Shown: positions 7,223 to 23,386 of the stretch, piece after piece
How the letters are laid out: each line of letters begins with the position of its first letter
Position numbering within the stretch: position 1 is the first letter of the stretch
NCBI RefSeq assembly: GCF_020035535.1
Contig: NZ_CP083349.1
Span: 2,480,001-2,544,000 of the forward strand
DNA: 64,000 nt
Source of the DNA: Ensifer adhaerens
GTDB lineage: Bacteria > Pseudomonadota > Alphaproteobacteria > Rhizobiales > Rhizobiaceae
Direction of reading: 5' to 3'
Program-made: the position numbers and the translations under genes
The notes under the pieces: model-generated
What the model was told of the DNA's origin: nothing
What the model saw: only the letters and a program-made list of their open reading frames with translations
Databases searched by the model: none

Positions 7223-7291
7223 AATCTCCCGGCCTCACCAAGCCGGTTCTACCACCTCGCATGAACGTCAAACGATAAAGGGAACAGCGTC

Positions 7292-8452: not shown

Positions 8453-8480
8453 TCGGACCGGTTCGAACACTGATTAGCCG

Positions 8481-8646
8481 CCCCTCTTCCGCCTGCCGGC
8501 ATCTTCTCCCCGTTCTGACGGGGAGAAGGGACAAGCCGAGAGCTCCCTGCCCTCGCTTCTGTCGGAACAGAGGGACCGGGCGGGCGCCACAGGTCCCCTT
8601 CGCCCCGCAAGCGGGGAGAAGGTGGCCGGCAGGCCGGATGAGGGGC
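8481..8646. repeat. RIME-like intergenic palindromic element, copy 1
   Basis: It fills most of the 252-base gap between binding-protein and permease genes. Its outer ends are imperfect inverted repeats (CCCCTCTTCCGCCTGCCGGC at 8481-8500 against GCCGGCAGGCCGGATGAGGGG at 8626-8645). Inside are hairpins built on TTCTCCCCG/CGGGGAGAA and CCCCGC/GCGGGG. Similar units recur at 14056, 50232, 60703 and 62717. This is the pattern of Rhizobium intergenic mosaic elements. Confidence 0.75.
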
Positions 8647-8704
8647 AGCCTCTCACCCCGCTCAAGACGGCCCGGATTACATCGAACACAACGGACCAAA
8701 CCTT

Positions 8705-9571
8705 ATGACCGCGGCAACGAACACGAAGAGAAACCTGGTGACGGCGGCGCTGGTGGCGCCGGCCGCCGCCTGGCTGATGATCTTCCTCGTGCTGCCCTTC
8801 ATCGCCATGCTGGTCTTCGCCTTCGGCGAGCGCGCACCGGAAGGCGGCTACCAGGCAGCCTTCACCTTTGCGCAATTCGCCAATCTGCCGACGCGGGCAG
8901 CGGCCTTCTGGAATACGCTGATCCTCGCGCCGATCGGCGCGCTCGCCTGCCTGCTGATTGCCTATCCGGTCGCCTATTACCTCGCGGTCAAGGCGAACCC
9001 GCGCTACCGGCTGATCCTCGTGTCGCTCGTCGTCGTGCCCTTCTGGACAAGCCTGCTCGTGCGCACCTATGCCTGGATGTACATCCTCGGCTCGCGCGGC
9101 ATTCCGAACCTCTTGTCGATGATCGGCATCGAGGATGTCAGGATGCTGAACACGCCGGGCGCGGTCCTGCTCGGCATCGTCTACGGCTATCTGCCGTTGA
9201 TGATCATGCCGATCTATGTGAGCCTTGAAAAACTCGACCGCCGCCTGCTCGAGGCCTCCGCCGATCTAGGCGGAAGGCCGGTATCGACCTTCTTCGGCGT
9301 AACCCTGCCGCTCTCCTTGCCCGGTGTCATGACCGGCGTCGCGCTGGTGACGATCCTGCTGCTCGGCGAATATCTGATCCCGCAGCTGCTCGGCGGCGGC
9401 AAGGTCTTCTTCATCGGCAATGCGCTGGTCGATCTATTCCTGCAGTCGCGCAACTGGCCCTTCGGCTCGGCGATTGCCGTCACGCTGGTCGCCGTCGTCG
9501 TGGTGATCCTGATGGTGGCGATGCGCATCGCCTTCCGCGTTGCCGGCACAAGACAGGTGGATCTCGTCTGA
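8705..9571 (+). CDS. Polyamine/betaine-type ABC permease (PotB-like)
   Basis: A 288-residue inner-membrane permease with a first helix at about residues 12-38. The EAA-loop-like segment (LEASADLGGRPVSTFFGVTL) lies near residues 182-201, as in PotB/PotH. It is separated from the binding-protein gene by a RIME-like repeat and overlaps the next permease gene by one base (TGATG), so the two are translationally coupled. It forms half of the channel for the 6140-10389 importer. Confidence 0.9.
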   Translation: MTAATNTKRNLVTAALVAPAAAWLMIFLVLPFIAMLVFAFGERAPEGGYQAAFTFAQFANLPTRAAAFWNTLILAPIGALACLLIAYPVAYYLAVKANPRYRLILVSLVVVPFWTSLLVRTYAWMYILGSRGIPNLLSMIGIEDVRMLNTPGAVLLGIVYGYLPLMIMPIYVSLEKLDRRLLEASADLGGRPVSTFFGVTLPLSLPGVMTGVALVTILLLGEYLIPQLLGGGKVFFIGNALVDLFLQSRNWPFGSAIAVTLVAVVVVILMVAMRIAFRVAGTRQVDLV

Positions 9572-10389
9572 TGCGCGCCTTCATCTCCTCCGTCTATCTC
9601 TTCCTCTATGCGCCGATCGCGCTCGTCGTGCTGTTCTCCTTCAATGCGGGGCGCAATGCCAGCGAGTTCACCGGGTTTTCGACCGCCTGGTACGGCAAGG
9701 CGCTAGGCAACACCTTCCTGGTCTCGGCCCTCCAGAACAGCCTGATGATCGCCTTTACCAGCGCCACGCTTGCCGCGATCTTCGGCACCATGGCAGCCCT
9801 TGGCATGGAGCGGCTGGCGCCGCGCAACCGGGCGATCTTCGATGCGCTCTTTGCCGCCGCCATCGTCGTTCCCGGCGTCGTCATCGGCATCGCGACGCTG
9901 GTTGCCCTCGTCGCCGTCTTCTCCTTCGTCAATCCGGCGCTGGCAACGATCTGGCCCGGCGACCAGCCGCCGCAGCTCGGCCTTGGCTACGGCTCGATCA
10001 TCGCCGCCCACGGCCTGTTTTCCATGGCGCTGGTGACGATGATCGTGAAGGCCCGCATCGCCAGCCTTGGCCGCGATATCGTCGAGGCATCTGGTGATCT
10101 CTACGCGACGCCGCTCACCACCTTCCGGCTGATCGTGCTGCCGCAGATCCTGCCCTCGATTCTTGCCGGCTTCCTGCTCGCCTTCACCTTCTCCTTCGAC
10201 GATTTCATCATCGCCTTCTTCGTCGCAGGCTCGAAGACTACGCTGCCGATCTACGTCTTCGCCTCGATCCGCCGCGGCGTGACGCCGGAGATCAACGCGA
10301 TCGCGACGCTGGTGCTCGTCGCCTCGCTGCTTCTGATCCTGACCGCCCGCGTCCTGATGCGGGAAAAGAAAACGAAATCCGGGGAGTGA
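9571..10389 (+). CDS. Polyamine/betaine-type ABC permease (PotC-like)
   Basis: A 272-residue inner-membrane permease, partner of the PotB-like protein. An EAA-type loop (VEASGDLYATPLTTFRLIVL) lies near residues 171-190, followed by the SFDDFIIAFF segment that is strongly conserved in PotC/PotI. Its start overlaps the preceding stop. The SDR gene follows after four bases, so the operon continues. The family is firm; the substrate is open. Confidence 0.9.
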   Translation: MRAFISSVYLFLYAPIALVVLFSFNAGRNASEFTGFSTAWYGKALGNTFLVSALQNSLMIAFTSATLAAIFGTMAALGMERLAPRNRAIFDALFAAAIVVPGVVIGIATLVALVAVFSFVNPALATIWPGDQPPQLGLGYGSIIAAHGLFSMALVTMIVKARIASLGRDIVEASGDLYATPLTTFRLIVLPQILPSILAGFLLAFTFSFDDFIIAFFVAGSKTTLPIYVFASIRRGVTPEINAIATLVLVASLLLILTARVLMREKKTKSGE

Positions 10390-10393
10390 AACC

Positions 10394-11155
10394 ATGATCC
10401 TGAAAAACCGGGTCGCGATCGTGACCGGAGCGGGCTCCGGGATCGGTCAGGCGGGTGCAGCCATCATGGCGCGCGAAGGCGCCCATGTCGTCGTCGTCGA
10501 CCGCAGCCTTGCGGCAGCGGTGACCGCCGTGGAAGAGATCGCCGCCAAGGGCGGCAGCGCCGAGGCGCTCGCAATCGACGTCACCGACGACGCGGCCCTT
10601 TCCGACGGCATTGCCGATATCGTCTATCGCCACGGCCGCATCGACATCCTGCACAACCATGCCGGCGCCCAGGTTGCGGGCGATCTGGAAGAGGTCGAGG
10701 TCGCGGGCTTCGACCGCTCCTGGAACCTCAATGTCCGCGCCCATTTCATGGCCGCACGGCTGGTCATGCCGTCGATGCGCGCCGCCGGCCGCGGCGTCAT
10801 CCTCAACACCTCCTCTTCCTCAGGCGTGCTCTACGACCGCGAGATGATCGCCTATACGACGACCAAACACGCCGTCATCGCCATGACCAAACAGATGGCC
10901 GGCGACTACGCCCGCCACGGCATCCGCGTCAACGCGCTCTGCCCCGGCTGGGTCGACACCCCCTTCAACGAGCCCTTCATCGCCCAGATGGGCGGCCGCG
11001 GCGCAATCGAATCCTATATCCGTGAAAAGGTGCCACTCGGGCGCTGGGCCAGCGTCGATGAGATCGCCGAATCGATCCTCTTCCTCGTCTCCGACCGCTC
11101 CTCCTACATGACCGGCCAGATCCTCGTGGTGGATGGCGGCGAGACGGTGGTGTGA
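10394..11155 (+). CDS. Short-chain dehydrogenase/reductase (SDR)
   Basis: A 253-residue classical SDR. The cofactor motif TGAGSGIG (residues 11-18) and following VVVVD suggest NAD(H) preference. The usual NNAG appears as HNHAG. The catalytic set is Ser in NTSSSSG, and Tyr and Lys in YTTTK. The C-terminus has the usual YMTGQILVVDGG. It is the last gene of the transporter operon (4-base gap), so it probably oxidises or reduces the imported compound or a product of it. The substrate cannot be predicted from sequence. Confidence 0.88.
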   Translation: MILKNRVAIVTGAGSGIGQAGAAIMAREGAHVVVVDRSLAAAVTAVEEIAAKGGSAEALAIDVTDDAALSDGIADIVYRHGRIDILHNHAGAQVAGDLEEVEVAGFDRSWNLNVRAHFMAARLVMPSMRAAGRGVILNTSSSSGVLYDREMIAYTTTKHAVIAMTKQMAGDYARHGIRVNALCPGWVDTPFNEPFIAQMGGRGAIESYIREKVPLGRWASVDEIAESILFLVSDRSSYMTGQILVVDGGETVV

Positions 11156-11274: not shown

Positions 11275-12081
11275 TCACGCCTTCGGAACGATACCCCGAC
11301 ACGCCCAAGCGACCGCCGCAAAGGATCGCGGCCCGTCCGGCTGGCCGGCTTCGTAGGCAGCGCGAATGGCCGCGTCGACCTTCGCCCGCTGGTCCGCGTC
11401 GAGCCCGGCGACGTATTTGCCGAGCGGTCCCTCGCCCGCGGCGATCGGCTCCCAGAAATCGGCGAACGACAGATAGTCCATCCGGATCAGGAGCGAAGTC
11501 TGCCGGACGTCCGTAAGGCCATTCGCGACGAAGCTCTGCATCATCTCGCCCGGCCGCATCATCGGCTGGAAACAATAGCGGCTGCGCACCCGATCGGCGT
11601 TGCCATCGAGCACCGCCGCCGTATCGAGCACCATTCTCATCCCCGGCATGCCGCCGAGATGATCCCAGACTGCCGCGGCGACGACACCGCCCGGTCGCAC
11701 GACACGGCGCATTTCGGCAACGGCCTTTCCCGCCTCCGGCACGAAATGCAGCACCAGCAGCGCCAGCGCCCGATCGAAGGAACCATCTGCAAAAGGAAGC
11801 GCGCAGGCATCGGCCTGTTGGACCTTGATCCTCGGGTCGGTATTGCCCCGCATCGTCGCCTCGACAAACACAGGCGAGAAGTCGATCGCGGTAATCTCAC
11901 TGACATTGGCCGCGTGCGGCAACGCAAAGGTCAGGCTTCCGGTACCGCAGCCGACCTCCAGCACCCGTTCGCCGTCGGCAAGCCCCGCAAAGTCGATGAA
12001 AGGCGGCGCCAGCTGGCGGCTCCACCGGCCCATCAGTTGCTCGTAGCCGGCCGCACTCTGCACATTGAAGCTCGATGTCAT
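11275..12081 (-). CDS. Class I SAM-dependent methyltransferase
   Basis: A 268-residue cytosolic methyltransferase of the UbiE/Methyltransf_11 type. The SAM-binding motif I is VLEVGCGTGSL (about residues 40-50), followed by the acidic ITAIDFS and post-motif ADACALPFADGSFD. The ATG at 12081 is preceded by GGAGGCGATC; the longer frame to 12237 runs through the flanking palindrome and is not believed. It is downstream of the urocanase-like gene on the same strand, 163 bases away. The substrate is unknown. S-methylation of a thiol or thione intermediate is an attractive idea because the operon has an S-methylthiohydantoin desulfurase-family protein, but small housekeeping roles are equally possible. 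Confidence 0.8.
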   Translation of the reverse strand: MTSSFNVQSAAGYEQLMGRWSRQLAPPFIDFAGLADGERVLEVGCGTGSLTFALPHAANVSEITAIDFSPVFVEATMRGNTDPRIKVQQADACALPFADGSFDRALALLVLHFVPEAGKAVAEMRRVVRPGGVVAAAVWDHLGGMPGMRMVLDTAAVLDGNADRVRSRYCFQPMMRPGEMMQSFVANGLTDVRQTSLLIRMDYLSFADFWEPIAAGEGPLGKYVAGLDADQRAKVDAAIRAAYEAGQPDGPRSFAAVAWACRGIVPKA

Positions 12082-12175
12082 GATCGCCTCCGGCAGCAAA
12101 GACGGCATTCTAGCGCTTGGCCCGCCGTGCACCAAGGCATTCGCGTCGAGAGGGGGCCCGGAGCGCGCCTCCTCT

Positions 12176-12208
12176 CCCTCATTTCTGTGCTTGTCACAGA
12201 GATGAGGG
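12176..12208. repeat. Short palindromic repeat with CTTGT loop, copy 2
   Basis: CCCTCATTTCTGTG (12176-12189), loop CTTGT, then CACAGAGATGAGGG (12195-12208): a 14-bp stem with one mismatch. It is the second copy of the palindrome at 11224, in the same orientation. It sits between the urocanase-like and methyltransferase genes and may attenuate read-through into the latter. Confidence 0.6.
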
Positions 12209-12244
12209 AAGCCCGTGCGGGGGCCTCCCACTCTCACGCGAAGC

Positions 12245-13903
12245 CTACACCTTCACGTGCCCGATGCCCTTGGCGGCGATCTCCTCGAAACTCTCGTCAT
12301 AGCCGGCATCGGCATAGCGGATGACACCGAGCGAGGTGTCGTTGGTAAGCGCATGGTCCAGCCGCTCGTCCGCTTCCACCGTGCCGTCGGCAATGACCGT
12401 CACGCCGCAACTCGTCATGTAGCCGGCATAGCCGCCACCGCCGGAATGCACGACAACGAGATCGGCCATCGAGGAGCAGAGCAGCATGGCGTCGAGTAGC
12501 GGCCAGTCGGCGATCGCATCCGATCCATCCTTCATCCGCTCGGTCATGATGTTCGGATGCGCCATGGCGCCAGCATCGAGGTGGTCGCGGGAAAATGCGA
12601 TCGGCCCCTTGAGCTCGCCGGATGCCACCAGTTCGTTGACGCGCCGAGCCAGGGCCGTGCGCTCGCCGTGGCCGAGCCAGGCGATGCGGGCGGGTAGGCC
12701 TTCGAAGGGGATATGCTCGCGCGCGAGCCTGATCCAGTTGGTGATGATCTTGTTGTCGGGGAACATGTCGAGCAGCAGATCGTCGATCCGGGCAATATCG
12801 CTCTCCTCGCCCGAAAGTGCCATCCAGCGGAACGGGCCGATGGCGCGAGCAAAGAGCGGGCGCAGATAGGCTTCGGTGAAGATCGGAATGTCGAAGGCAT
12901 TGGCGACGCCGCCCTCGCGCGCCTGGGTGCGGATGAGGTTGCCGTTGTCGAAGACCTCAGCGCCCTTTTTCTGGAAGTCGAGCATCGCCGTGACGTGTTC
13001 GACGATCGAGGCGCGGCTTGCCGCCATCAACTGCCCCTGGCCGTCGTCGCGCAGCGATTTCACCTGGTCGGGGCTCATGCCCTTCGGCACGTATCCATAG
13101 ACGAGGTCATGCGCCGAGGTCTGGTCGGTCACCACGTCGGGCACGATGCCGCGCCGAGCGATCTCCGGATAGATTTCCGCCGCATTACCGACAAGGCCGA
13201 CGGAGAGCGCCCGCTTCTCCTTCACCGCCGCGTCGATCATCGCAAGTGCCACGTCAAGATTGGGGGCGATCTCCTGCAGGTAGCCGATCTCTCGCCGCTT
13301 CTTCGCCCGCTCCGCATCGATGTCGACGCAGAGGATCGCCGCACCCGCCATGCGGCCGGCGAGCGGCTGCGCCCCGCCCATGCCGCCAAGACCGGCGGTC
13401 AGCACGAAACGGCCCGCGAGATCGCCGCCGAAGCGACGCTCGGCGATGCGCATGAAGATCTCGTAGGTGCCCTGGATCACACCCTGGCTGCCGATATATT
13501 GCCAGGCGCCGGCCGTCAGCCCGCCCCAGCAGATCAGCCCTTTCCGCTGCAAGTCGTAGAAAACCTCTGCCTTCGCCCATTGGCCGACGATGTTGCAATT
13601 GGCCATGATGACCAGCGGCGCCTTGGCGTGAGTCTTGAGCAGGCCGACGGGCTTGCCCGACTGAATGATGAGCGTCTGGTCCTCGTCCATTTCGATGAGT
13701 GTCTTGACGATGGCGCGGTGCGCCGGCCAGTTGCGCGCCGCCTTGCCGAGCGCGGCATAGACGACCAGATTGTCCGGATCCTCGCCGACCGAAAGCACGT
13801 TTTCAAGCAGCCGCAGCAGCGCCTCCTGCCGCCAGCCCTTGGCGCGCAGCTCCGGCCCACCGGGGATCGGAAAACCGGGATGACGGGGATTGGCCTTGGG
13901 CAT
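12245..13903 (-). CDS. Urocanase-family hydratase lacking the catalytic Cys; probable thiourocanate hydratase
   Basis: A 552-residue urocanase-fold protein. Conserved parts include QSGKPVGLLKTH (residues 81-92), GLTAGAWQYIGSQGVIQGTYE (128-148), the NAD-binding GGMGGAQPLAG (173-183), GPFRW and DWPLLDAML. Two functional differences stand out. Canonical urocanases have ARICW at the catalytic Cys (Cys410 in P. putida); this protein has ARIAW (Ala408). The canonical HHGGGVGMGFSQH segment is HSGGGGYAGYMTS here. It would still use NAD+ to add water across a urocanate-like side chain, but probably not on plain urocanate. Its neighbours point to thiourocanate. Start is ATG 13903 with AGAGGA upstream. 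Reduced or no activity with this Ala remains possible. Confidence 0.85.
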   Translation of the reverse strand: MPKANPRHPGFPIPGGPELRAKGWRQEALLRLLENVLSVGEDPDNLVVYAALGKAARNWPAHRAIVKTLIEMDEDQTLIIQSGKPVGLLKTHAKAPLVIMANCNIVGQWAKAEVFYDLQRKGLICWGGLTAGAWQYIGSQGVIQGTYEIFMRIAERRFGGDLAGRFVLTAGLGGMGGAQPLAGRMAGAAILCVDIDAERAKKRREIGYLQEIAPNLDVALAMIDAAVKEKRALSVGLVGNAAEIYPEIARRGIVPDVVTDQTSAHDLVYGYVPKGMSPDQVKSLRDDGQGQLMAASRASIVEHVTAMLDFQKKGAEVFDNGNLIRTQAREGGVANAFDIPIFTEAYLRPLFARAIGPFRWMALSGEESDIARIDDLLLDMFPDNKIITNWIRLAREHIPFEGLPARIAWLGHGERTALARRVNELVASGELKGPIAFSRDHLDAGAMAHPNIMTERMKDGSDAIADWPLLDAMLLCSSMADLVVVHSGGGGYAGYMTSCGVTVIADGTVEADERLDHALTNDTSLGVIRYADAGYDESFEEIAAKGIGHVKV

Positions 13904-14055
13904 CGTCTCGTTCCTCTTTGATATCTCGGTGGGGGCAGACGCCCTCCCGTCTACGTCAGTGGGGTCGTGCCCCTCTCATCCATGGTGGCGGGAGGTCACT
14001 GCCTCCTCACGTTCGCAGGTCGCGGCCCCTCACGTTTGTGGCGACGGATGGCGAC

Positions 14056-14110
14056 GGCCCCTCACCCTAGCCCTCTCCCCGCCTGCGGGGAGAGGGTCAG
14101 GTGAGGGGCC
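14056..14110. repeat. RIME-like palindrome, copy 2 (short form)
   Basis: GGCCCCTCACC (14056-14066) and GGTGAGGGGCC (14100-14110) are the outer arms, with GCCCTCTCCCCGC/GCGGGGAGAGGG as inner arms around a two-base centre. It fills part of the 270-base gap between the TfoX-like and urocanase-like genes. This is a single near-perfect hairpin rather than the composite longer elements elsewhere. The rest of the gap shows only the urocanase-like gene's ribosome site. Confidence 0.75.
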
Positions 14111-14173
14111 AACGCGAACAATTACTTGTAGCGCAACCCTCTAACACTCTCGGACAGCGCAAGCCGTCAACTC

Positions 14174-14503
14174 TCACTTGGGCGGCAATGTCTCGACGAA
14201 CGCGATCGCGCCATCGAGCAGCCGCTTGCGCAGCGCATCGTCGCCATAGGCGTCCGCCCCTGCCCGCACCCACCCGTGCATCGCCCGCCCGTTCATCACC
14301 ATCAGTTCGATACCCGGCAGATCAAGCGCCCAGCGATCATTGCCCTTGCCGAGCCGCACCAGCAGCGAACCCTCGCGCGCACCCAGAAGCAGGTTGCCAT
14401 GAAGCAGATAGGCCCAGCCGCCGAACATCGCCTTTTCCGAGAGCCCGGCGCGCTCGCCGAGTTCTTCTCGGATCAGCTCTTCCAGTCCCGCATCGCGCGC
14501 CAT
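14174..14503 (-). CDS. TfoX N-terminal domain protein
   Basis: A 109-residue cytosolic protein with the TfoX N-terminal fold: SEKAMFGGWAYLLHGNLLLGA (about residues 21-41), then a basic strand and GRAMHGWVRA near residue 75. ATG 14503 follows GGAGCAGGATC. It begins 13 bases after the DUF917 stop, so it belongs to the operon. Stand-alone TfoX_N proteins of this size have no established biochemical role, and a DNA-competence function is unlikely here. Its conservation within this catabolic operon would be worth testing. Confidence 0.8.
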   Translation of the reverse strand: MARDAGLEELIREELGERAGLSEKAMFGGWAYLLHGNLLLGAREGSLLVRLGKGNDRWALDLPGIELMVMNGRAMHGWVRAGADAYGDDALRKRLLDGAIAFVETLPPK

Positions 14504-14516
14504 GATCCTGCTCCCG

Positions 14517-15626
14517 TTACCTTCCGGAAAGGGCGTAACGAGCAAGCTCGATGCCCATCGCCTTTTCGACCGATGGATAGACCGTCGGGTCGAGCACGCT
14601 TGAAGACAGCGGGATCACCGTCTTCGGCACATGCAGCACGAAAATCTTCATGCCCACCTGAAGCTGGCCGACGCTCAAAGGTTCGCCCCCAGGCGACAGC
14701 GTGGTGATGACGTCGGGGAAGGTCGCAAGCCGCGTGCCTTCCGCAGAGTCAACCGCCATGTACTCGTTCATCACGTGCAATACCGTGGAGTCAGCGCCCC
14801 TCCCCAGCGTCCCCTTTTCCAGTGTCACGGTGCCGATGTCGAAGGCTTCCTTGGTATAGACGACGGATTTGTCGGTGATCGTGCCTTCCGAGAGGATCGC
14901 GCCGTTGGTCGTCTTGACGATGGCATCGATCACCGCGCTGCCGCCCTTCGCTTCCGCCGCGATGATCGCCTCGCCAAGCGCCAGCGCCAGCGAAATGCCC
15001 CCGAGCGCCGCATTGGCTTTCACATAGGATGCCCTGACCGGATTGCGGCAGGAGGCAATGAAGCCGCCGGACATGTCGGAGGCGGTGCGCAGGATCGGCG
15101 AGACCTTGGCGGTGGCGCCGCGCACCACCAGCTCGATGTAGCGGTTCTCCTCGCGGTTTCCCCCGACCGCCGTCTGGATCATCGGCTCGGGCGAGCCGGC
15201 AAGGCCGATCGAGCCCATGTCGCCGGTCGGATGGGCGCGGATATCACCGACGGCGTCCACTACCTTGGTGCCGAGGATCGCCGAGGGCAGCCAGCCGTTC
15301 AGCGTCGAGGACTTGCCGTTCTGGCCGATGATCAACCCCGAGAGCTTTTCGCCGAGCGCCTCCTGCAGGAGTTGCACGGCCTTGACGTAATCGACCCCGC
15401 GCATCTCCCAGGGCGTAGTCGAGGCCGGTGCGCCGATGGCGGCTGCGGTCGCCACCCAGTCCTGTGCGTCGAGTTCGTCGATCGAGACGAGCTCCGGCTT
15501 GCCGATGGACACCGCGGCATAACCGAGCATGCGGCCATGATCGGCCCAGCCGCCGCCGCCGGCCGCATAGACGGAACCGCCCTTGACCGCCGCCTCGACG
15601 TCCTTTTCCTTCAGTATCCGGCCCAT
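14517..15626 (-). CDS. DUF917 / S-methylthiohydantoin desulfurase-family protein
   Basis: A 369-residue cytosolic protein of the DUF917 family (Pfam PF06032, since renamed for S-methylthiohydantoin desulfurase, as I recall). Recognisable parts are GGSVYAAGGGGWADHGRML (about residues 15-33), DELDAQDWVATAAAIGAP, QNGKSSTLNGWLPSAILG and the C-terminal hydantoinase-like small domain. It lies between the carbamoylase gene (1-base gap) and the TfoX-like gene (13-base gap). Inferred reaction: hydrolytic removal of sulfur from a 2-thioxo- or 2-methylthio-imidazolone propionate, giving hydantoin-5-propionate. This is the step needed between a thiourocanate hydratase and a hydantoinase. Many family members are uncharacterised, so the exact substrate is inference. 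Confidence 0.8.
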   Translation of the reverse strand: MGRILKEKDVEAAVKGGSVYAAGGGGWADHGRMLGYAAVSIGKPELVSIDELDAQDWVATAAAIGAPASTTPWEMRGVDYVKAVQLLQEALGEKLSGLIIGQNGKSSTLNGWLPSAILGTKVVDAVGDIRAHPTGDMGSIGLAGSPEPMIQTAVGGNREENRYIELVVRGATAKVSPILRTASDMSGGFIASCRNPVRASYVKANAALGGISLALALGEAIIAAEAKGGSAVIDAIVKTTNGAILSEGTITDKSVVYTKEAFDIGTVTLEKGTLGRGADSTVLHVMNEYMAVDSAEGTRLATFPDVITTLSPGGEPLSVGQLQVGMKIFVLHVPKTVIPLSSSVLDPTVYPSVEKAMGIELARYALSGR

Positions 15627-15627
15627 C

Positions 15628-16908
15628 TCACACCTTCTCCTGCAATTTATTGTCGAGCCGCTTCACCGCATCGAAGAGAACGGCGGCGCCGAGCGCGATG
15701 TCGTCGTTTTCGGCCCACTCCTCCGGCGAATGCGAGCGTCCGCCGAGGCAGGGAATGAAGATCATCGCCGAACGGGTGATGCGCCCCATCCAGGCCGTGT
15801 CGTGGCCGGCGCCCGATGCCATGCGCCGATGCTTGGCGCCGATCGCATCGCAGCTGTCTTCGAGCGTCGAAAGCAGCAGCGGATCGCCCGGCGTCGGATG
15901 GTTGTCCGAGATCACATTGGCGGGCGCAATCGTCACGCCCGATGCCTCGGCGACACCCTGGCAAAGGGAGCCGAGCGTTGCCAGGAACCGCTCCATCTGC
16001 GGCCGCAGCTCGGCACGGGCATCGATCAGCAGCCGGACGCGAGACGGCACGACATTGGCTGCATTCGGCTCGATCGAAAACTCGCCGACCGTCGCGGTGA
16101 AATGCCCGTCGCCGTGAGAGAACTCCGTCGCCAGCCGCTCGATCTCCAGCACCAGCCGGGAGGCCACAACCAGCGCATCGCGCCGATGCCCCATCGGCGT
16201 CGTGCCGGCATGGTCCGCCTGTCCCTCGACGATGATCTCGATGCGGGTGATACCGGAAATGGCGGTAACGACCCCGACATCGAGCCGCCCGGTTTCGAGT
16301 ACCGGCCCCTGCTCGATGTGCAGTTCCAGGAACGCCTTGATATCCGAGCGCTTTGAGCCCGAGAGCCTGGAGGGATCACCGCCCACCTCGACGATGCCTT
16401 GCCAGAGGCTCAGGTCCCCTTGCGTGCGGTTCAGCCAGCCATCCGGCAGCACACCCGCCATGCCGCGGCTGCCGACGCAGGAGACGCCGAAGATCGACAC
16501 TTCCTCCGCCAGAAAGTCCACGATCTCCAGATCGTGGTCGAGCTCGATGCCGTTGTCGGAAAGCGCCCGCGCCACTTCGAGCGCCGCCGCTACCCCGGCG
16601 ATGCCGTCGAAGCGCCCGCCATCCGGCACCGTGTCGGAATGGGAGCCAAGAAGGATGGTGCCGAGTGCCGACTTTTTCCCCTTGCGCCGGCCGATCAGGT
16701 TGCCGGCAGCGTCGATCCGGGTTTCGAGCCCGGCCGCACGAAAACGCCGGTCGAGAAAGGCCCGACCTTCGAGGAAAAGCGGCGTGAAGGCGCGGCGCGT
16801 ATACGGCCGGTCCGGCTCGGTGATACCAGCCAAGCCGTTGACGATGCCGGCAATGCGGCTCGCATTGACGGGCAGATTGGCCGGAACCTTATGGGCGGTG
16901 TTGCTCAT
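15628..16908 (-). CDS. N-carbamoyl amino acid amidohydrolase (M20/AllC family), probable N-carbamoyl-L-glutamate hydrolase
   Basis: A 426-residue M20-fold metalloenzyme of the allantoate amidohydrolase/L-carbamoylase group. Metal and catalytic motifs are GSHSDTVPDGGRFDG (about residues 95-109), DFLAEE (about 132-137), LELHIEQGP (near 196), GAGHDTAWMG (near 373) and RSHSPEEW near the C-terminus. The start overlaps the hydantoinase stop by 4 bases (ATGA), so the two are coupled. Reaction class: hydrolysis of an N-carbamoyl group to amino acid, CO2 and ammonia. In this operon the natural substrate is likely N-carbamoyl-L-glutamate. Allantoate amidohydrolase is the main alternative, but no other purine catabolic gene is present. 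Confidence 0.88.
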   Translation of the reverse strand: MSNTAHKVPANLPVNASRIAGIVNGLAGITEPDRPYTRRAFTPLFLEGRAFLDRRFRAAGLETRIDAAGNLIGRRKGKKSALGTILLGSHSDTVPDGGRFDGIAGVAAALEVARALSDNGIELDHDLEIVDFLAEEVSIFGVSCVGSRGMAGVLPDGWLNRTQGDLSLWQGIVEVGGDPSRLSGSKRSDIKAFLELHIEQGPVLETGRLDVGVVTAISGITRIEIIVEGQADHAGTTPMGHRRDALVVASRLVLEIERLATEFSHGDGHFTATVGEFSIEPNAANVVPSRVRLLIDARAELRPQMERFLATLGSLCQGVAEASGVTIAPANVISDNHPTPGDPLLLSTLEDSCDAIGAKHRRMASGAGHDTAWMGRITRSAMIFIPCLGGRSHSPEEWAENDDIALGAAVLFDAVKRLDNKLQEKV

Positions 16909-18284
16909 CTCGCCTCCTGCAGGGTCAAGGTCGGCAGCGGCCGGACGAACTGCCCGACGCCGGGCTCGGAGAGAACCTGTCGGCCATCGAAGGCGAGCTT
17001 GCCACGCAGATAGGTCGCAGCCACCCGCCAGGGCAGCTTGATGCCATTATAGGGCGACCAGCCGACGACGTTGTGACCGCTCTCGGCCGCATCATAGACA
17101 TAGGGCTCCGGCGTCATGACGATGATGTCGGCATCCTTGCCGGCCTCCAGCGCGCCCTTTTTATGGTCGAGGCGGAAATGCCGTGCCGGGTTCAACGTCA
17201 TCAGCTCCGCTGCCCGCGTCAGCGGGATGCCGCGTTCGAGCGCCCCTTTGACGAAGAGCGGCACCATGACTTCGAGCCCTGGCACGCCCGACGCATTCGC
17301 CAGCATGTCCGGATTGGTCTTGCGATCCTCCGACCAACTGACGTGATCGGTCGAAACCATCGTCACCGTACCGTCGGCGATGTGCCGCCAGAGCTTTTCT
17401 ACCTCGGCGCGCGGCCGGATCGGCGGGTTGATCTTGGCCTTGCCGCCGAGACGGCGGACGTCGGTTTCTTCGTCGAGCGTCAGGTAGTGGATGCAGCACT
17501 CGATCGTCGCCTTGTAGCCCTGGGCGCGATAGGCGGCGGCAATCTGATAGCCGCGGCCGAGCGAGCAATGCACCACATGCGCCGGGCAGCCGGTGGCAGC
17601 GCCCGTTTCATAGATCTGGTTGGTGGCAAGCAGTTCCGTCAGCGACGGGCGCGACAGCCCATGGGCCCGGTAGTCGGTAATGCCTGCTGCCTTGACCTTC
17701 TCGATCGCCGCACGCACCGCCTCGTCATCCTCGTTGTGTACGCCGGCCGACAGCCCGGTTGGCGCGATCGCGCGGAAACAGTCTTCGAGCAATGCTGCCG
17801 GAATGCGGGGAAAACGTTTCGGATCAGTGCCAAAGGTCGAAAACTTGAAGGCAGCAACACCGCCCTCCACCATTTCGAGAATACGCGCCGGTCCCTCCTC
17901 CGGATCGATAGTGCCATAGAGCGCGAAATCGACGCGCGCCTGCGGTCCCGCATGGTCGATCTTGCGGCGCAATGCCTCGGCCGAACAAACGAGATTGCCC
18001 TCGTCATAGGGCATATCGACGATGGTGGTGACGCCGCCGGCCGCCGCCGAGCGGGTCGACCAGATGAAATCTTCCTGGTTCCTCTGCGACAGCGAATGCA
18101 CCTGCGCATCGACGGCGCCCGGCAGGATCAGCGCGTTGCCGAGATCATGCCGCTCGCGCGCGGCAGGTGCAGCACCCTGCCCGACATGCACCACCTTGCC
18201 GTCGCGCACCGCCACGTGGCCGCCCTCGACGATCCTTTCGGGGAGAACAACGGTGCCTTTCAGAACGAGATCGAAGTCGGACAT
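16905..18284 (-). CDS. Cyclic amidohydrolase (hydantoinase/allantoinase family), probable hydantoin-5-propionate hydrolase
   Basis: A 459-residue TIM-barrel amidohydrolase. Expected metal ligands are seen at His63 (in PGAVDAQVHS), Lys147 (in AAFKFSTFG, the carbamylated lysine), His183 (GVHNED), His239 (VVHCS) and Asp313 (STDHVSW). The usual DxHxH motif reads DAQVH, so the first His is Gln61. It lies 18 bases after the lyase gene and overlaps the carbamoylase gene by 4 bases. Reaction class: ring opening of a cyclic ureide. With its neighbours, hydantoin-5-propionate to N-carbamoylglutamate fits best. Dihydropyrimidinase or allantoinase are alternatives without local support. Confidence 0.87.
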   Translation of the reverse strand: MSDFDLVLKGTVVLPERIVEGGHVAVRDGKVVHVGQGAAPAARERHDLGNALILPGAVDAQVHSLSQRNQEDFIWSTRSAAAGGVTTIVDMPYDEGNLVCSAEALRRKIDHAGPQARVDFALYGTIDPEEGPARILEMVEGGVAAFKFSTFGTDPKRFPRIPAALLEDCFRAIAPTGLSAGVHNEDDEAVRAAIEKVKAAGITDYRAHGLSRPSLTELLATNQIYETGAATGCPAHVVHCSLGRGYQIAAAYRAQGYKATIECCIHYLTLDEETDVRRLGGKAKINPPIRPRAEVEKLWRHIADGTVTMVSTDHVSWSEDRKTNPDMLANASGVPGLEVMVPLFVKGALERGIPLTRAAELMTLNPARHFRLDHKKGALEAGKDADIIVMTPEPYVYDAAESGHNVVGWSPYNGIKLPWRVAATYLRGKLAFDGRQVLSEPGVGQFVRPLPTLTLQEAR

Positions 18285-18302
18285 GCTGCTCTCCCAATCG
18301 GA

Positions 18303-19841
18303 TTATTTGTCGAGCGCGAAGAAGTCGTCGAACTCCGGCATGGGCGCGGAAGCGACGAAGGAGCGCAGGAGATCGTGGCAGGTGAAGGCATCCTGCAGCG
18401 CCTCGATCTCCTTCGAAAGCGGCCGATCCTTCAGATAGATCGCGCTGACGGAGCGGGTCTGGTCATAGGCCCGTTTGACGATCCCTTGCGGTTGGTCGCC
18501 GACGAGGTCGATCGCCTGCGCCGACAGCATCGCCTCGATCGCCGCCAGCTGGCGCAGATCGCGCACCTGCGTTTCCATGCGCTCGACGATCAACGGCAGG
18601 AAGGTCGCCTCCTCTTCGAGACCGCCGGCCACCACGATCGACTGCGCCGAAAGCGGCACGGCGAGCGACTGCACGCGCATATAGAGTTCGACCGCAAGCT
18701 TCATCAGCGGCCCGAGCCCGGTTGCGACCTCCCCTGGCGCCACCAGATTGACCGAGAGATTGCGGCGGCCGCCATTCGCGAGAAGGATGCAGCGGTTCAG
18801 CACGTTGCGCGCCGCATGCGAAAAGGCGATCTGCGCCGCCTCGATGTAGAGCGTCGTTGTGAGCGGCAGCGAAGCGCCGGAGGAATGGACCTGCCCGCCG
18901 ATGACAACAGGATTGTCGTCGGAGAGATAGGTCTGCTCCACCAGCCGGCCGGCCGCAACCAGCAGCGTATCGACCACCGCGCCGAAGACCTGGGCGGTCA
19001 TGCGCAGGCTCAAGGGATCGTGGATCGCCGTCGGCACCGGCCAGTCGGAGATGCCGGACTGGCCATAGAGCCAGGAACCGACCACCGCCTCGCCGCGGGT
19101 CGAGAGCGTCGCCGCCACTCGCCAGGGATCGGCAGACGCCCCGAGCGCTTGGGACGACATGACCCCGGTGACGAGCAGCACGCGGATGGCGGAGGCTGCC
19201 TCGCGCAGCACATTGGCCGCAGCCGAAAAGGCGATGGCGTTAACGCTGAGGGCTGCCAGCGCGTCGCGCGGCTGCATCACGAAAGGCTCCAGGCCGGCTT
19301 CGGCAAGGGCCGTCTCGGCCGAGACGAGCCGTCCCTGGTAGTAGGCCTCGCCGACGCCCGTCAGCACGGAGGCGATCTGGCCCATCAGGCCGATATCGGC
19401 GCAGCCCATGGAGCCGTGGCGGCGTACCGCCGGAATGATGTCGTGTTCGGTGAGCGCCAGAAACGCCCGGATCAGATCCGGGCTGCAGCCCGTGTGGCCG
19501 CGCATGGCCGTGTTGACACGGATGGCGATCGCCATGCGCACGATCGCCGGCGCGAAGAACTCGCCGGTACCGAAGTGGTGCGCCCTGACCAGCGAGTTGT
19601 TGAATTCTGCCAGATCACCAGCGGTCCAGAGCCGGTCCTTCATGGAGCCGACGCCGGTGTTGGAGCCGTAGACCGGCAGTCCCATTGCGATGCGGTCGGC
19701 GATCACCTTGTGGGCGGCAGCAACGCGCTCCATGCCGCTATCATCCGCCACTGGTCGGCCCCTTCCCGCGCCGATCTCCTGGAGCGTCGCGAAATCGAGC
19801 GGTTTCCCGCAGAGAACGATGGTTTTGACCTGTTGCAGCAT
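18303..19841 (-). CDS. Aromatic amino acid lyase homologue without MIO triad; probable ergothionase
   Basis: A 512-residue protein of the histidine/phenylalanine ammonia-lyase fold and the first gene of the operon. Family marks are PVYGSNTGVG with the catalytic-loop Tyr58, NNSLVRAHHFGTGE, HDPLSLRMTAQVFG (the conserved Arg) and DDNPVV. The Ala-Ser-Gly triad that cyclises to the MIO cofactor is absent: the segment reads GSMGCADIGLM (residues 143-153), with Cys-Ala-Asp in its place. Ergothionase, which eliminates trimethylamine from ergothioneine, is reported to work without MIO because its leaving group is already cationic. This fits the desulfurase, hydantoinase and carbamoylase genes downstream. 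ATG 19841 follows GGAAAGG; a longer frame to 20015 would use up the divergent promoter. Hercynine or another betaine could be the substrate instead. Confidence 0.82.
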   Translation of the reverse strand: MLQQVKTIVLCGKPLDFATLQEIGAGRGRPVADDSGMERVAAAHKVIADRIAMGLPVYGSNTGVGSMKDRLWTAGDLAEFNNSLVRAHHFGTGEFFAPAIVRMAIAIRVNTAMRGHTGCSPDLIRAFLALTEHDIIPAVRRHGSMGCADIGLMGQIASVLTGVGEAYYQGRLVSAETALAEAGLEPFVMQPRDALAALSVNAIAFSAAANVLREAASAIRVLLVTGVMSSQALGASADPWRVAATLSTRGEAVVGSWLYGQSGISDWPVPTAIHDPLSLRMTAQVFGAVVDTLLVAAGRLVEQTYLSDDNPVVIGGQVHSSGASLPLTTTLYIEAAQIAFSHAARNVLNRCILLANGGRRNLSVNLVAPGEVATGLGPLMKLAVELYMRVQSLAVPLSAQSIVVAGGLEEEATFLPLIVERMETQVRDLRQLAAIEAMLSAQAIDLVGDQPQGIVKRAYDQTRSVSAIYLKDRPLSKEIEALQDAFTCHDLLRSFVASAPMPEFDDFFALDK

Positions 19842-20118
19842 GCCGATACGAACCTTTCCGCGTGGCGCGCCTCGCCATCGAGACTGCACGCGGATGCCTG
19901 GATTTTCACGCAACCGCCGCTCGTAAACGCCCGGATGCCTGCTGCATGCTATGCGCTTATCGCCCGCACGTGCTATATCCCAAATCTGGAACGGGCGATG
20001 CCAGATATCGAACATACCTTGGGCGCACGCGGCCTGTCGTGATCGATTCTAAAATTAATGCGGAATGCGGGTGAAAACCACGCACACTGTTCCCACCCCG
20101 CTCCGAAAGGACCGTTGA
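19842..20118. promoter_or_regulatory. Divergent promoter region with LysR-type dyad and direct repeats
   Basis: This 277-base region separates the lyase operon from the LysR-type gene. It holds ATCTGG (19984-19989) and CCAGAT (20001-20006), a perfect dyad with an 11-base centre, the layout expected for a LysR-type recognition site. CGGATGCCTG occurs twice in the same orientation (19891-19900 and 19932-19941), 41 bases apart, close to four helical turns. Both fit control of the operon by the adjacent regulator. No clear -35/-10 pair was identified. Confidence 0.5.
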
Positions 20119-21342
20119 ATGGATTTGGCAACGATCGTGATTGTCGATGCGGTGCTCCGCGAGGGCGGCATCCGCGCCGCTGCCGCCGTTTGCGGGCGGG
20201 CACCGTCAAGCGTCAGCGCCGCGGTCAAGCGCTTCGAGCAGGCCGTCTCGATGCCGCTCTTCCGGCGGGAGGGAACCGTTGTCGTGCTGACATTGGAAGC
20301 CCGTGCCCGCACATCCGATATCCGCGAGGCAACTGCGAAGATCGCCGCGATCCTGGAGGCGGCAGGAAAGGAGCCCGCCGCCCCTGTTCCGCCGATCGGC
20401 CTCGTCGCGCTTGACCGTTTCGTTCGGATCGCCCGCACCGGCAGCATCCGCGCCACCGCAAAGGCGCTCGCATTGGGCCAACCGCAGCTGACGCGGCAGA
20501 CCGCGGATCTCGAGCGCCATTTGAGCATCAGACTGTTCGAGCGCTCGCATGGCGGCATCCTCTGCACGGCAACCGCGGAGCGGATTATCCCGCTTGCCGA
20601 AACGTTGCTCGACATCTGGGCACGGCTGACCCACGCCTCTGCCGACCGCTTTCGCCGCGACGTCGCCACCTGGCGGCTCGGCGCCGTCATGCCGCTGGGT
20701 CCGGAAAGCGAGATCGCCCGCATGCTCGCGAGCCTGACGGCCAACTGGCACCGCACGCGCCCGCGTCAACCGCTGTTCATCTCCAGCACCACCGCCGACG
20801 ACCTGCTGGCCGGGCTCCGCAGCCGCCGCTTCGATGCCGCCTTGCTCGACGTCGCCGAGATCCCCGCGGATTGCGATGGCCGGCTGGTCTCGCAAACGCC
20901 ACTGGTGCTGGCCGGCCCGGCCGCCGCCCTTTCGGAACTCGGCGCCAACCTGCCGCGGCTGCTCGCCACCTGCCCGATCGCCGTGCCGAGCGTCAGGAGC
21001 GGCCTGCGCCGCGAGGCCGCCCGCTTCCTGGATGATACGCTCAGTGAAGCCGAACGGCGGCGCATCACCCTCGTCGAGGTCGATTCCATCCCCGTGATCA
21101 TCAACCTCGTTCGCCAGCACGGCTATCTCTCGGTGTTGCCGGAATCCTCACTCGCCCGCGTGCACCTCCCACCGGCGATGATCCGTCTCGGCCCGGCCTA
21201 TCGGCAGTCGCTGACGCTCGTCTGGCCACGCGGAACGCTTGCCGGCGAGATCGGCGAGCTGATGGTTGCGATGATGAAGATGAGCGCCGAGACCAGGCCG
21301 GCATCGGATTCAATTCCTGATCATCCCCCGACAAGCGCCTGA
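20119..21342 (+). CDS. LysR-type regulator with two tandem N-terminal HTH domains
   Basis: A 407-residue regulator, about 100 longer than a usual LysR protein. A first LysR-like winged helix-turn-helix spans residues 3-62 (REGGIRAAAAVCGRAPSSVS, then KRFEQAVSMPLFRR). After a linker a second spans 95-155 (LDRFVRIARTGSIRATAKAL, then LERHLSIRLFERS). The effector-binding domain follows from about residue 175 (WRLGAVMPLG ... LVEVDSIPVIINLV). It is divergent from the lyase operon and is the obvious candidate to control it. The first HTH has a less canonical recognition helix, so it may bind weakly or serve in dimerisation. ATG 20119 follows GAAAGGACC. Confidence 0.88.
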   Translation: MDLATIVIVDAVLREGGIRAAAAVCGRAPSSVSAAVKRFEQAVSMPLFRREGTVVVLTLEARARTSDIREATAKIAAILEAAGKEPAAPVPPIGLVALDRFVRIARTGSIRATAKALALGQPQLTRQTADLERHLSIRLFERSHGGILCTATAERIIPLAETLLDIWARLTHASADRFRRDVATWRLGAVMPLGPESEIARMLASLTANWHRTRPRQPLFISSTTADDLLAGLRSRRFDAALLDVAEIPADCDGRLVSQTPLVLAGPAAALSELGANLPRLLATCPIAVPSVRSGLRREAARFLDDTLSEAERRRITLVEVDSIPVIINLVRQHGYLSVLPESSLARVHLPPAMIRLGPAYRQSLTLVWPRGTLAGEIGELMVAMMKMSAETRPASDSIPDHPPTSA

Positions 21343-21386: not shown

Positions 21387-22358
21387 TCAGCTTTTCAGCT
21401 TCAGACGTCTGCGCGTCTCGCTCGGGCTTTCGCGGTAATGCGCCCGGTAGCTTCGCGAGAAGGAAGACGACGAGTTGAAGCCCGAGATCGCGGCGATGTC
21501 TGCAAATTCCAGCCGTGTCTCGATCACCTTGCGCCGCGCCGCATTGAGGCGCAGCGCCAGATAATGCTCATGCGGGGCAACGCCCATTGTGTCGCGAAAA
21601 AGATCCTGCAGGTGGCGGGTACTGACGCCGATGCGGCGGGCGAGCCTTGCGAGCGTTAGCGGCGCCTCCACCGTCTCCTCCATCAGCTTGACGGCAGCAC
21701 CCACGCGCGGATCGAGGATGCGCATGTTGCCGATCGCGGGCATCTGCAGGAGATCGCCGCGGGTGCGCTCCTGTTCGTAGATGAAGAGCCGCGAGACTTC
21801 GAGCGCCAGCGAATAGCCATGCGCCCGGCGGATCAGCTCCAGCATCAGGTCGAGCGTCGGCAGCGAGCCGCCAGTCGTAATGCGCTTGCCGTCGATGACG
21901 AAGCGCTCGCGCACCATCGTCACCTGCGGATAGCTGGTGGTGAAATCCTCGAAGTCCTCCCAGTGCGTGGTCGCCTTGAAATTGTCGAGCAGGCTGGTCT
22001 CGGCAAGCAGCCAGGAACCGGATTCGATGCCGGCCATCAGGTCGCGGTGCCGGGCGGTCTGCGAGAGCAGCATCTTCAGCTGCGAGGTGGCGCTGCGCTG
22101 CCAGTTGTAGCTTGAGAGGATGAAGAGCGGCGACGTCTCGCGCTGCGGACGGAAGATGCCGGAGACCGGAATGGGAATGCCACTCTTCGTTTCGATCGGC
22201 GCGCCGTCGGGGCTGTAGATCGTCCAGTCGTAGAGCGGTCGCCCGGCAATGCGGTTGGCCGCGCGCATCGGCTCGATGACGGAGGCAACCAGGATCAGAT
22301 TGGTCTCCGGCAGCACCAGGATATCGACATGCTGCACCTGCGAAACGTCCTGATCCAT
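21387..22358 (-). CDS. cdhR: GlxA-family AraC-type regulator, probable carnitine regulator (CdhR-like)
   Basis: A 323-residue regulator with an N-terminal DJ-1/PfpI-like domain (HVDILVLPETNL ... IESGSWLLAE) and a C-terminal AraC HTH pair (LARLARRIGVSTRHLQDLFR, then ADIAAISGFNSSSSFSRSYR). The start is ATG 22358 with GGAG upstream; a GTG at 22382 is possible. It is divergent from the carnitine genes, the arrangement known for CdhR in Pseudomonas, where the regulator senses carnitine. It lies convergent with, and 45 bases from, the LysR-type gene. Name by family and context, not by direct proof. Confidence 0.82.
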   Translation of the reverse strand: MDQDVSQVQHVDILVLPETNLILVASVIEPMRAANRIAGRPLYDWTIYSPDGAPIETKSGIPIPVSGIFRPQRETSPLFILSSYNWQRSATSQLKMLLSQTARHRDLMAGIESGSWLLAETSLLDNFKATTHWEDFEDFTTSYPQVTMVRERFVIDGKRITTGGSLPTLDLMLELIRRAHGYSLALEVSRLFIYEQERTRGDLLQMPAIGNMRILDPRVGAAVKLMEETVEAPLTLARLARRIGVSTRHLQDLFRDTMGVAPHEHYLALRLNAARRKVIETRLEFADIAAISGFNSSSSFSRSYRAHYRESPSETRRRLKLKS

Positions 22359-22381
22359 GCCCAAACTTCTCCGCGTTGTCA

Positions 22382-22411
22382 CCGATAATGTATAGGATGG
22401 ATCCGATAATG
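22382..22411 (+). promoter_or_regulatory. CCGATAATG direct repeat in carnitine promoter region
   Basis: CCGATAATG occurs at 22382-22390 and 22403-22411, same orientation, 21 bases apart (two helical turns), between the GlxA-type regulator and the beta-keto acid cleavage gene. Two in-phase direct half-sites are typical of AraC-family targets, so this is the best candidate operator for the carnitine genes. Confidence 0.5.
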
Positions 22412-22466
22412 AAAAGCAGAACGACCCTTCTTGGCTCGTAATGGGGTCAATAAAAGGGAGACAGCA

Positions 22467-23369
22467 ATGCCGCTCAGCATGAACCGCGAGGTATTCGTCA
22501 CCTGTGCCGTCACCGGCTCGGGAGACACCGTTTCAAAGTCCAGCCATGTTCCGATCACTCCGAAACAGATCGCCGAAGCGGCGGTCGAGGCGGCCAAGGC
22601 CGGCGCTGCCGTGGTCCACTGCCACGTCCGCGATCCGGAGACCGGAGCCCCTGCCCGCAGGCTCGATCTCTACAAGGAAGTAACCGACCGTATCCGCTCT
22701 GCCGATGTCGACATGGTGCTGAACCTGACCGCCGGCATGGGCGGCGACCTCATCTTCGGCAACGTCGAAAGTCCGCTCCCGCTCAACGAGAAAGGCACCG
22801 ACATGGCCGGCGCCACCGAGCGTGTCGCGCATGTGGCCGAATGCCTGCCGGAAATCTGCACGCTCGACTGCGGCACCATGAACTTCTCGCTTGGCGATTA
22901 TGTCATGACCAACACGCCGTCGATGCTGCGCGAAATGGCCCGCCAGATGACCGCGCTCGGCGTCCGTCCCGAAATCGAGGCTTTCGACACCGGCCATCTC
23001 TGGTTTGCCAAGCAGCTCGTCGAGGAAGGCCTGATCGAGGATCCGGTCCTGATCCAGCTCTGCATGGGCATCCCGTGGGGCGCGCCTGACGACCTCAACA
23101 CCTTCATGGCCATGGTCAACAACGTGCCTGCCAACTGGACCTTCTCGGCCTTTTCCATCGGTCGCAATGCGCTTGCCTATCCGGCGGCAGCGGTCCTTGC
23201 CGGCGGCAACGTTCGCGTCGGCCTTGAGGACAACCTCTATATCGGCAAGGGCCAGCTCGCGACCAACGGCCAGCTCGTCGAAAAGGCCGTCGGCGTCATC
23301 GAGGGCATGGGCGCCAAGATCATAGGGCCGAAGGAGGTCCGCGAGAAACTGAAGCTGACGAAGCGCTGA
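22467..23369 (+). CDS. cdhC: 3-dehydrocarnitine cleavage enzyme (BKACE family)
   Basis: A 300-residue TIM-barrel zinc enzyme of the beta-keto acid cleavage (DUF849) family. The metal motif is VHCHVRD (about residues 48-54), and later marks are GDYVMTN, EAFDTGHLW, MGIPWGAP and VRVGLEDN. ATG 22467 follows AAGGGAG. It sits 17 bases before the carnitine dehydrogenase-thioesterase gene. Known pathway in Pseudomonas and Sinorhizobium: 3-dehydrocarnitine plus acetyl-CoA gives betainyl-CoA plus acetoacetate. The neighbour then cleaves the thioester to glycine betaine. Family and context agree well. Confidence 0.88.
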   Translation: MPLSMNREVFVTCAVTGSGDTVSKSSHVPITPKQIAEAAVEAAKAGAAVVHCHVRDPETGAPARRLDLYKEVTDRIRSADVDMVLNLTAGMGGDLIFGNVESPLPLNEKGTDMAGATERVAHVAECLPEICTLDCGTMNFSLGDYVMTNTPSMLREMARQMTALGVRPEIEAFDTGHLWFAKQLVEEGLIEDPVLIQLCMGIPWGAPDDLNTFMAMVNNVPANWTFSAFSIGRNALAYPAAAVLAGGNVRVGLEDNLYIGKGQLATNGQLVEKAVGVIEGMGAKIIGPKEVREKLKLTKR

Positions 23370-23386
23370 GCAGGGACAGAACAATC

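Follow-up and report, generated by a model that had tools for sequence, protein, structure and literature searches.

A predicted ergothioneine-to-glutamate degradation operon with a divergent lyase lineage in Ensifer adhaerens

Ergothioneine is produced by fungi and some soil bacteria, and a pathway for its degradation has reportedly been described by Muramatsu in Burkholderia sp. HME13 (ergothionase BAM63550), for which the Burkholderia arboris cluster serves here as a stand-in. We analysed a stretch of 64,000 nucleotides of the Ensifer adhaerens genome (contig NZ_CP083349.1, positions 2,480,001 to 2,544,000; hereafter the window), in which the genes at positions 12245–19841 very probably constitute an operon for the catabolism of ergothioneine to glutamate (ert operon). 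PMC13405746 cites work on ergothioneine in Burkholderia, Treponema, Agrobacterium radiobacter and gut bacteria, calls ergothionase restricted to a few genera, states that BLAST with the Burkholderia ergothionase gave only HAL/PAL/TAL-type matches, and cites as published an ergothioneine-sulfonate pathway from A. radiobacter.

Four of the five enzymes encoded in the window, all but the lyase, score above the NCBIfam equivalog cut-offs for ergothioneine utilisation; the ert pathway itself is therefore not new, and curated families for it exist. This variant stands out by its separate lyase lineage, by a LysR-type regulator with two helix-turn-helix (HTH) domains that goes with a conserved motif, and by an apparently modular supply of the pathway. 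The first-pass annotation of this locus had considered a rhizobial operon of this kind little described. This stands in so far as no description of a rhizobial ert operon was found among the titles and abstracts listed, some of the searches, the rhizobia-specific one among them, being poorly built; it is weakened by the curated ert families and by the A. radiobacter sulfonate pathway being in print, going by PMC13405746.

Gene content, linkage and predicted route

Families were assigned with Pfam and NCBIfam release 20.0 models at their curated cut-offs. Five catabolic genes had been proposed on one strand, and all are present in frame on the minus strand according to the open reading frames (ORFs) and Pfam (Table 1). 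The hydration, desulfuration, ring-opening and decarbamoylation steps that had been read into the locus are borne out by NF058530, NF058529, NF058538 and NF058540, respectively, the predicted reaction of each enzyme being that of its curated family; ErtE also exceeds NF009531 (685 against a cut-off of 486). The nearest PDB entry of the hydratase is 7ned, which itself reaches 1022 bits on NF058530. The cysteine of HutU at the position aligned with Ala-408 of the hydratase is catalytic, and the suspicion of a urocanase homologue devoid of this residue proved right. Ala stands there in each of the 102 hydratase matches that reach 66% identity, a thiourocanate-type set with some overlapping loci, and Cys in all 27 HutU-type matches below 52.5%, with Cys, Cys, Ala and Gly in four intermediate matches. 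Taken together, the earlier interpretation of the locus is supported.

With intergenic gaps of 18, -4, 1, about 13 and about 270 nt from lyase to hydratase in the window's ORF list, the six closely spaced ORFs in 12245–19841 plausibly form a single transcription unit. The sixth member, also anticipated by the first-pass annotation as TfoX-like, is present, although its family membership is marginal. Its ORF is listed at 14174–14545, and coverage in relatives points to a start at 14503; the protein is without any Cys.

The lyase, ErtD, ErtE, the desulfurase and the two-HTH LysR gene occur in 57 of 57 loci of relatives, which were taken from named records and retrieved via the lyase, with some matches split in L060, L061 and L062. 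The hydratase is found in 56, being missing only at L030, where the contig stops short of its position, and 34 of the 57 loci have the TfoX_N-like gene in the interval from desulfurase to hydratase, as do G413 and G512. The gene arrangement is far beyond chance. Linkage is tested more independently in a sample of 151 family genomes, which were not retrieved via the lyase: hydratase and desulfurase exceed their cut-offs in the same 16 genomes, and the 13 genomes with the lyase all fall within these 16 (hypergeometric 2.8e-16, relatedness ignored), under strict limits of E <= 1e-80 for the lyase and E <= 1e-30 for the LysR protein that leave weaker relatives uncounted. In G480 the place of the rhizobial lyase is taken by one of the Burkholderia type, which P. 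denitrificans encodes downstream of its hydratase, while G433 and G452 hold no lyase in the cluster, their best Burkholderia-type matches elsewhere being only 32–33% identical. Only 5 of 385 genomes of the class, own genome included, exceed the hydratase cut-off, and the ert trait is therefore patchy across the class. Apart from this, matches to several genes are split in L061, perhaps through sequencing errors, and the lyase match of G395 (L141:1987-3693) falls into two pieces in one frame, which suggests an insertion inside the gene.

In the predicted route, imported ergothioneine would lose trimethylamine through the lyase to give thiourocanate, which the hydratase would convert to 2-thio-imidazolone/thiohydantoin propionate. 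The desulfurase would then swap sulfur for oxygen with the freeing of sulfide, ErtD would open the ring of hydantoin-5-propionate, and ErtE would take off the carbamoyl to leave L-glutamate, CO2 and ammonia. The host genome (8.13 Mb, three contigs) gave no match to EgtD, the methyltransferase of ergothioneine biosynthesis, and ergothioneine should therefore come from outside. A mutual exclusion of ert and EgtD was considered and dropped, as none of the 151 family genomes having both (ert in 16, EgtD in 10) is not significant (P = 0.31). No match above cut-off was obtained with TIGR03105 (glutamine synthetase III), which says little on methylamine use.

Table 1. Features of the ert locus and its surroundings (window positions)
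Feature	Position	Strand	Basis
Lyase without MIO (4-methylidene-imidazol-5-one), 512 aa, predicted ergothioneine trimethylamine-lyase, separate rhizobial clade	18303..19841	-	Pfam Lyase_aromatic; nearest PDB 6s7j; tree
ErtD, hydantoin-5-propionate amidohydrolase (predicted)	16905..18284	-	NF058538 796 bits, cut-off 600; Pfam Amidohydro_1
ErtE, N-carbamyl-L-glutamate amidohydrolase (predicted)	15628..16908	-	NF058540 599 bits, cut-off 520; Pfam Peptidase_M20
Thiohydantoin desulfurase (predicted), DUF917 / S-Me-THD family	14517..15626	-	NF058529 596 bits, cut-off 440; Pfam S-Me-THD
TfoX_N-like small protein, optional operon member	14174..14503	-	PF04993 (TfoX_N) 31.9, cut-off 30.1
Thiourocanate hydratase (predicted), urocanase family, Ala-408 at HutU Cys position	12245..13903	-	NF058530 1056 bits, cut-off 930; Pfam Urocanase
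LysR-type regulator, probably of ert, with an N-terminal pair of HTH domains	20119..21342	+	two HTH_1 stretches and LysR_substrate
Putative operator GTTC-N5-TTGGGATAT (19975-19992) and second GTTC..GCAT unit 21 bp upstream	19975..20014	-	motif conservation
Polyamine-like ATP-binding cassette (ABC) transporter (ATPase, binding protein, two permeases) and short-chain dehydrogenase/reductase (SDR)	6140..11155	+	potA/PotB models
Class I S-adenosylmethionine (SAM) methyltransferase, optional downstream neighbour	11275..12237	-	Pfam Methyltransf_11; 11/57 loci
GbdR-like AraC-type regulator, beside carnitine genes	21387..22382	-	NF052371 218 bits, below cut-off 480; 56/57 loci
BKACE (22431-23369) and carnitine 3-dehydrogenase/thioesterase (23387-24880)	22431..24880	+	PF05853; NF005716 913, cut-off 592

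The divergent lyase and competing readings

Ammonia-lyases of this fold use the MIO triad. The lyase of the window had been taken for a homologue without it, and the alignment with HutH of the same genome agrees, with GSMGCA-DIG set against GSVGASGDLA and the Ala-Ser-Gly triad gone. Its best PDB match, by sequence as well as by fold, is the Treponema denticola ergothionase 6s7j; the AlphaFold2 model (predicted local distance difference test 88.7) superposes on 6s7j by Foldseek with E 1.6e-28 and a root-mean-square deviation of 2.2, and the aromatic-amino-acid-lyase fold is thus retained with the triad absent. Identity to the Treponema and Burkholderia-type ergothionases is 25–31%, with residues common to all of these in the alignment. 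The window lyase does not group with them: in a tree rooted at midpoint and containing some long branches, 18 rhizobial-type rows form one clade (100/100), separate from four Burkholderia/Treponema-type rows (81/60). The nearest named relatives are from Ensifer strains (94–97% identity), the Rhizobium rhizogenes lyase P0089 is 55% identical, and members of the clade go by the names 'histidine ammonia-lyase' or 'aromatic amino acid lyase', if they are named at all. The enzyme can be described as an ergothionase-like, divergent lyase without MIO, whose substrate we infer to be ergothioneine even though it is only 28% identical to the T. denticola enzyme. It is probably cytoplasmic, because its N-terminus carries no signal-like stretch by eye.

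It could be argued that these genes are paralogues of histidine utilisation, the lyase acting on histidine and the hydratase on urocanate, given their membership in Lyase_aromatic and Urocanase and the score of the hydratase on the broad hutU model TIGR01228 (693 against a cut-off of 375). This is extremely improbable, as the lyase reaches only 205 against 539 on the hutH model TIGR01225, the MIO triad and the HutU Cys are lost, and histidine degradation has no place for a desulfurase, ErtD and ErtE. Moreover, a separate hut operon lies elsewhere in the genome, with HutH (705 bits), HutU (978), HutG (391) and HutI (432) all above their cut-offs and with the triad kept in HutH, and the histidine pathway was rejected. 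An operon for S-methyl-ergothioneine, with S-methyl-thiourocanate and S-methyl-thiohydantoin as intermediates, would draw on the same enzyme families, and a cluster of that type exists on the plasmid pAt of Agrobacterium tumefaciens. The pAt hydratase and desulfurase pass the models NF058531 and NF058532 with 968 and 555, whereas those of the window fall short (743 against 880 and 277 against 450), so that this pathway was also rejected and is held to be very improbable.

The rhizobial lyase might instead prefer ergothioneine sulfonate or another thiohistidine betaine, which would join the same pathway. This would fit the position of its clade apart from the known ergothionases, the Ser found in the aligned pocket at the position of HAL F329, where 6s7j and the Burkholderia types have Phe, and the A. 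radiobacter sulfonate pathway that PMC13405746 cites as published, the lyase of R. rhizogenes being the 55% identical one noted above. Against this, a thiohydantoin desulfurase accompanies the lyase in 13 of 13 lyase-bearing genomes among the 151, which points to a sulfur that has kept its thione form up to the hydration of the ring; we regard such a preference as unlikely. A second lyase lineage with 25–31% identity and annotated as ammonia-lyase would escape a BLAST search with the Burkholderia enzyme, and the genes for thiourocanate hydratase and desulfurase are better markers than the lyase.

Regulator, uptake and lyase-less clusters

The operon had been credited with its own dual-HTH regulator, and Pfam recovers two HTH_1 stretches in the LysR-type protein, whose gene is divergent from the operon and begins 277 nt away from that of the lyase. 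Counterparts at ert clusters of Paracoccus, Thalassospira, Neorhizobium and others, with or without a lyase, align with it over both HTH regions. Among the 151 family genomes, 13 have the two-HTH LysR at E <= 1e-30, 12 of them ert-positive and 10 with the gene adjacent to ert; it lies on another contig in the ert-positive G413 and G512, and G451 has the regulator but no ert. No match at this limit was obtained in G433, G452, G472 and G480, in which ert is present. The gene stands between lyase and ErtD in Rhizobium sp. SL42, with TTGGGATAT at both promoters. A two-HTH LysR was not met in the literature search, where only an AraC-type regulator surfaced. As a separate observation, one copy of the gene (G459:C1:579862-581025) contains one in-frame TAA.

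The element TTGGGATAT occurs exactly once per locus in 55 of the 57 loci, and the second GTTC...GCAT unit is mainly confined to the Ensifer/Rhizobium/Shinella group. In other lineages the exact element is present in 8 of 19 loci (L071, twice; L072, L073, L142, L143, L144, L145 and L148) and was not found in the remaining 11, including L068, L070 and L074, which carry the regulator. L143 has two copies, one of them at the promoter, and the consensus includes one L143 row from an off-promoter match. Searched for in 18 whole genomes, of which 17 are ert-positive, the pattern GTNCN5TTGGGATAT gives 16 matches, 11 of which lie at the ert promoters of 11 genomes; since the pattern was derived from ert promoters these arise partly by construction, and it is the rarity elsewhere that counts. 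The backward control gave 0, and the five matches off ert promoters are in five genomes, four seeming by eye to fall inside unrelated coding regions or on their borders (the fifth is G387:C1:168026). Further regulon members were rejected, the own genome giving one pattern match, at ert. The two-HTH LysR probably binds GTTC-N5-TTGGGATAT as its operator and would switch the operon on once an intermediate accumulates. The regulator is found at the lyase-less clusters L070, L072 and L074, and the exact motif, among these, only at L072, which suggests thiourocanate or a later compound as the inducer.

A nearby importer had been noted as well. A full ABC set is indeed present (about 6140–10389), but it is polyamine-like, on the strand opposite to the operon, and nothing links it to ergothioneine. 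Its ATPase barely passes potA (356.0 against 355.6), the score of the first permease stays under that required for PotB, and its binding protein and the SDR are found in 16 and 32 of the 57 loci, counts limited by flank length. The set was rejected as the ergothioneine importer on the grounds of strand, polyamine likeness and the 16 of 57 loci, and no ergothioneine importer could be named in the own genome. An OpuAC-type betaine ABC importer occurs in 4 of 15 rhizobial-type loci (L068, L140, L146 and L147), or 4 of 72 with near relatives; it lies between lyase and ErtD in three of these four, and in L146 the gene for its last permease shares 4 nt with ErtD. The L068 binding protein reaches the OsmF glycine-betaine model, and many Sinorhizobium plasmids encode proteins about 71% identical to it, so that it is not specific to ert.

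The ErtD-ErtE-desulfurase-hydratase core may, tentatively and with rather more doubt than conviction, be viewed as a movable module fed in three ways. In one form it would be served by a rhizobial-type lyase, for which no signal-like N-terminus is seen by eye where the start is readable, with the OpuAC importer in some lineages. In another, a Burkholderia-type lyase would act; L073, L075 and L139 (3 of 3) combine a signal-like N-terminus, by eye, with a nearby gene for a major facilitator superfamily (MFS) carrier, the one in L139 being closest to the metabolite/H+ symporter subfamily, under cut-off, and cleavage may thus be periplasmic, with thiourocanate then imported. In the third form, without lyase, a tripartite ATP-independent periplasmic (TRAP) carboxylate importer would take up thiourocanate released by others, and both this form and the first would rely on a two-HTH LysR that responds to a later intermediate.

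The lyase-less clusters carry TRAP genes in 4 of 6 cases (L072, L074, L137 and L138) against 0 of 18 lyase-bearing loci (one-sided P = 0.0014), a count of small numbers and partly related loci that omits L076, which has neither hydratase nor TRAP, L077 and L079, whose lyases are of other types, and L149 with its HutH-like lyase, and leaves the 57 near relatives, none with TRAP, off the lyase-bearing side. Genes for GntR and an aminotransferase in L072, and a UbiD-type gene in L074, lie between hydratase and TRAP, and in L137 the binding protein alone of the TRAP genes is in view. These lyase-less clusters possibly belong to thiourocanate scavengers, with the qualification that P. aminophilus, Thalassospira, Neorhizobium and Rhizobium CC-CFT758 are represented by the plasmid ert region only and a lyase could lie elsewhere. 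If true, soil ergothioneine breakdown would be split between cleavers and scavengers, and the lyase-less clusters make cross-feeding a directly testable hypothesis.

Flanking genes, related clusters and known systems

Beyond the regulator, BKACE is present in 56 and the carnitine dehydrogenase in 55 of the 57 loci; unlike in the Rhizobiaceae-type loci, carnitine genes were not found in the Ochrobactrum and Paracoccus ert clusters that were read.

The own genome encodes a second lyase without MIO triad (GSVGY---L; L067:5805-10706, on G000:C1 with the lyase at 3044697-3046097), whose neighbours are HutD, an OpuAC-type binding protein and the ATPase of an ABC system, a setting similar to that of the rhizobial 'hutH2'. 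This second lyase shares 62% identity with that of the pAt S-methyl-type cluster and is possibly a betaine lyase, for example of hercynine, rather than an ammonia-lyase. A third triad-less lyase (L066:8870-16809; G000:C2, about 2.10 Mb) stands beside an OpuAC betaine ABC importer, a family III coenzyme A (CoA) transferase, a 3-hydroxyacyl-CoA dehydrogenase and an enoyl-CoA hydratase, a set of genes that looks like a route for a further betaine by way of a CoA thioester. In G086 (L149:7246-11591) a lyase with an intact Ala-Ser-Gly triad accompanies desulfurase- and thiourocanate-type hydratase genes and is possibly an ammonia-lyase for 2-thiohistidine.

The S-methyl-type cluster of A. tumefaciens Ach5 (L077:6659-24600) lies on pAt, a plasmid typed as conjugative. 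It resembles the window in its enzyme families and triad-less lyase, and a betaine importer is present in pAt; it differs in belonging to other equivalogs, in a lyase of 24% identity and in having a molybdopterin S/N-oxide reductase and a glutathione S-transferase gene among the ert-like genes.

The T. denticola ergothionase (6s7j, 6s7q), like the window lyase, has no MIO triad and a loop one residue shorter than in HAL, and the two have DPLSxR, DDNP and AGxxE in common; they are set apart by their 28% identity, their separate clades and the Phe of 6s7j, against Ser in the window, at the F329 position. Between the window hydratase and the thiourocanate hydratase family (NF058530, 7ned) no difference of kind is seen, the HutU Cys being replaced by Gly in 7ned and by Ala in the window.

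The same five reactions as in the Burkholderia HME13 pathway are predicted for the window operon, and the comparison with Burkholderia enzymes that the first-pass annotation had suggested comes out divided. The B. arboris cluster holds relatives of the window hydratase (69%), desulfurase (69%), ErtD (47%) and ErtE (45%), whereas its lyase, 30–31% identical, is of the other lineage, has a signal-like N-terminus and is accompanied by an MFS gene. Its gene order is also different, and its LysR protein has one HTH domain where that of the window has two.

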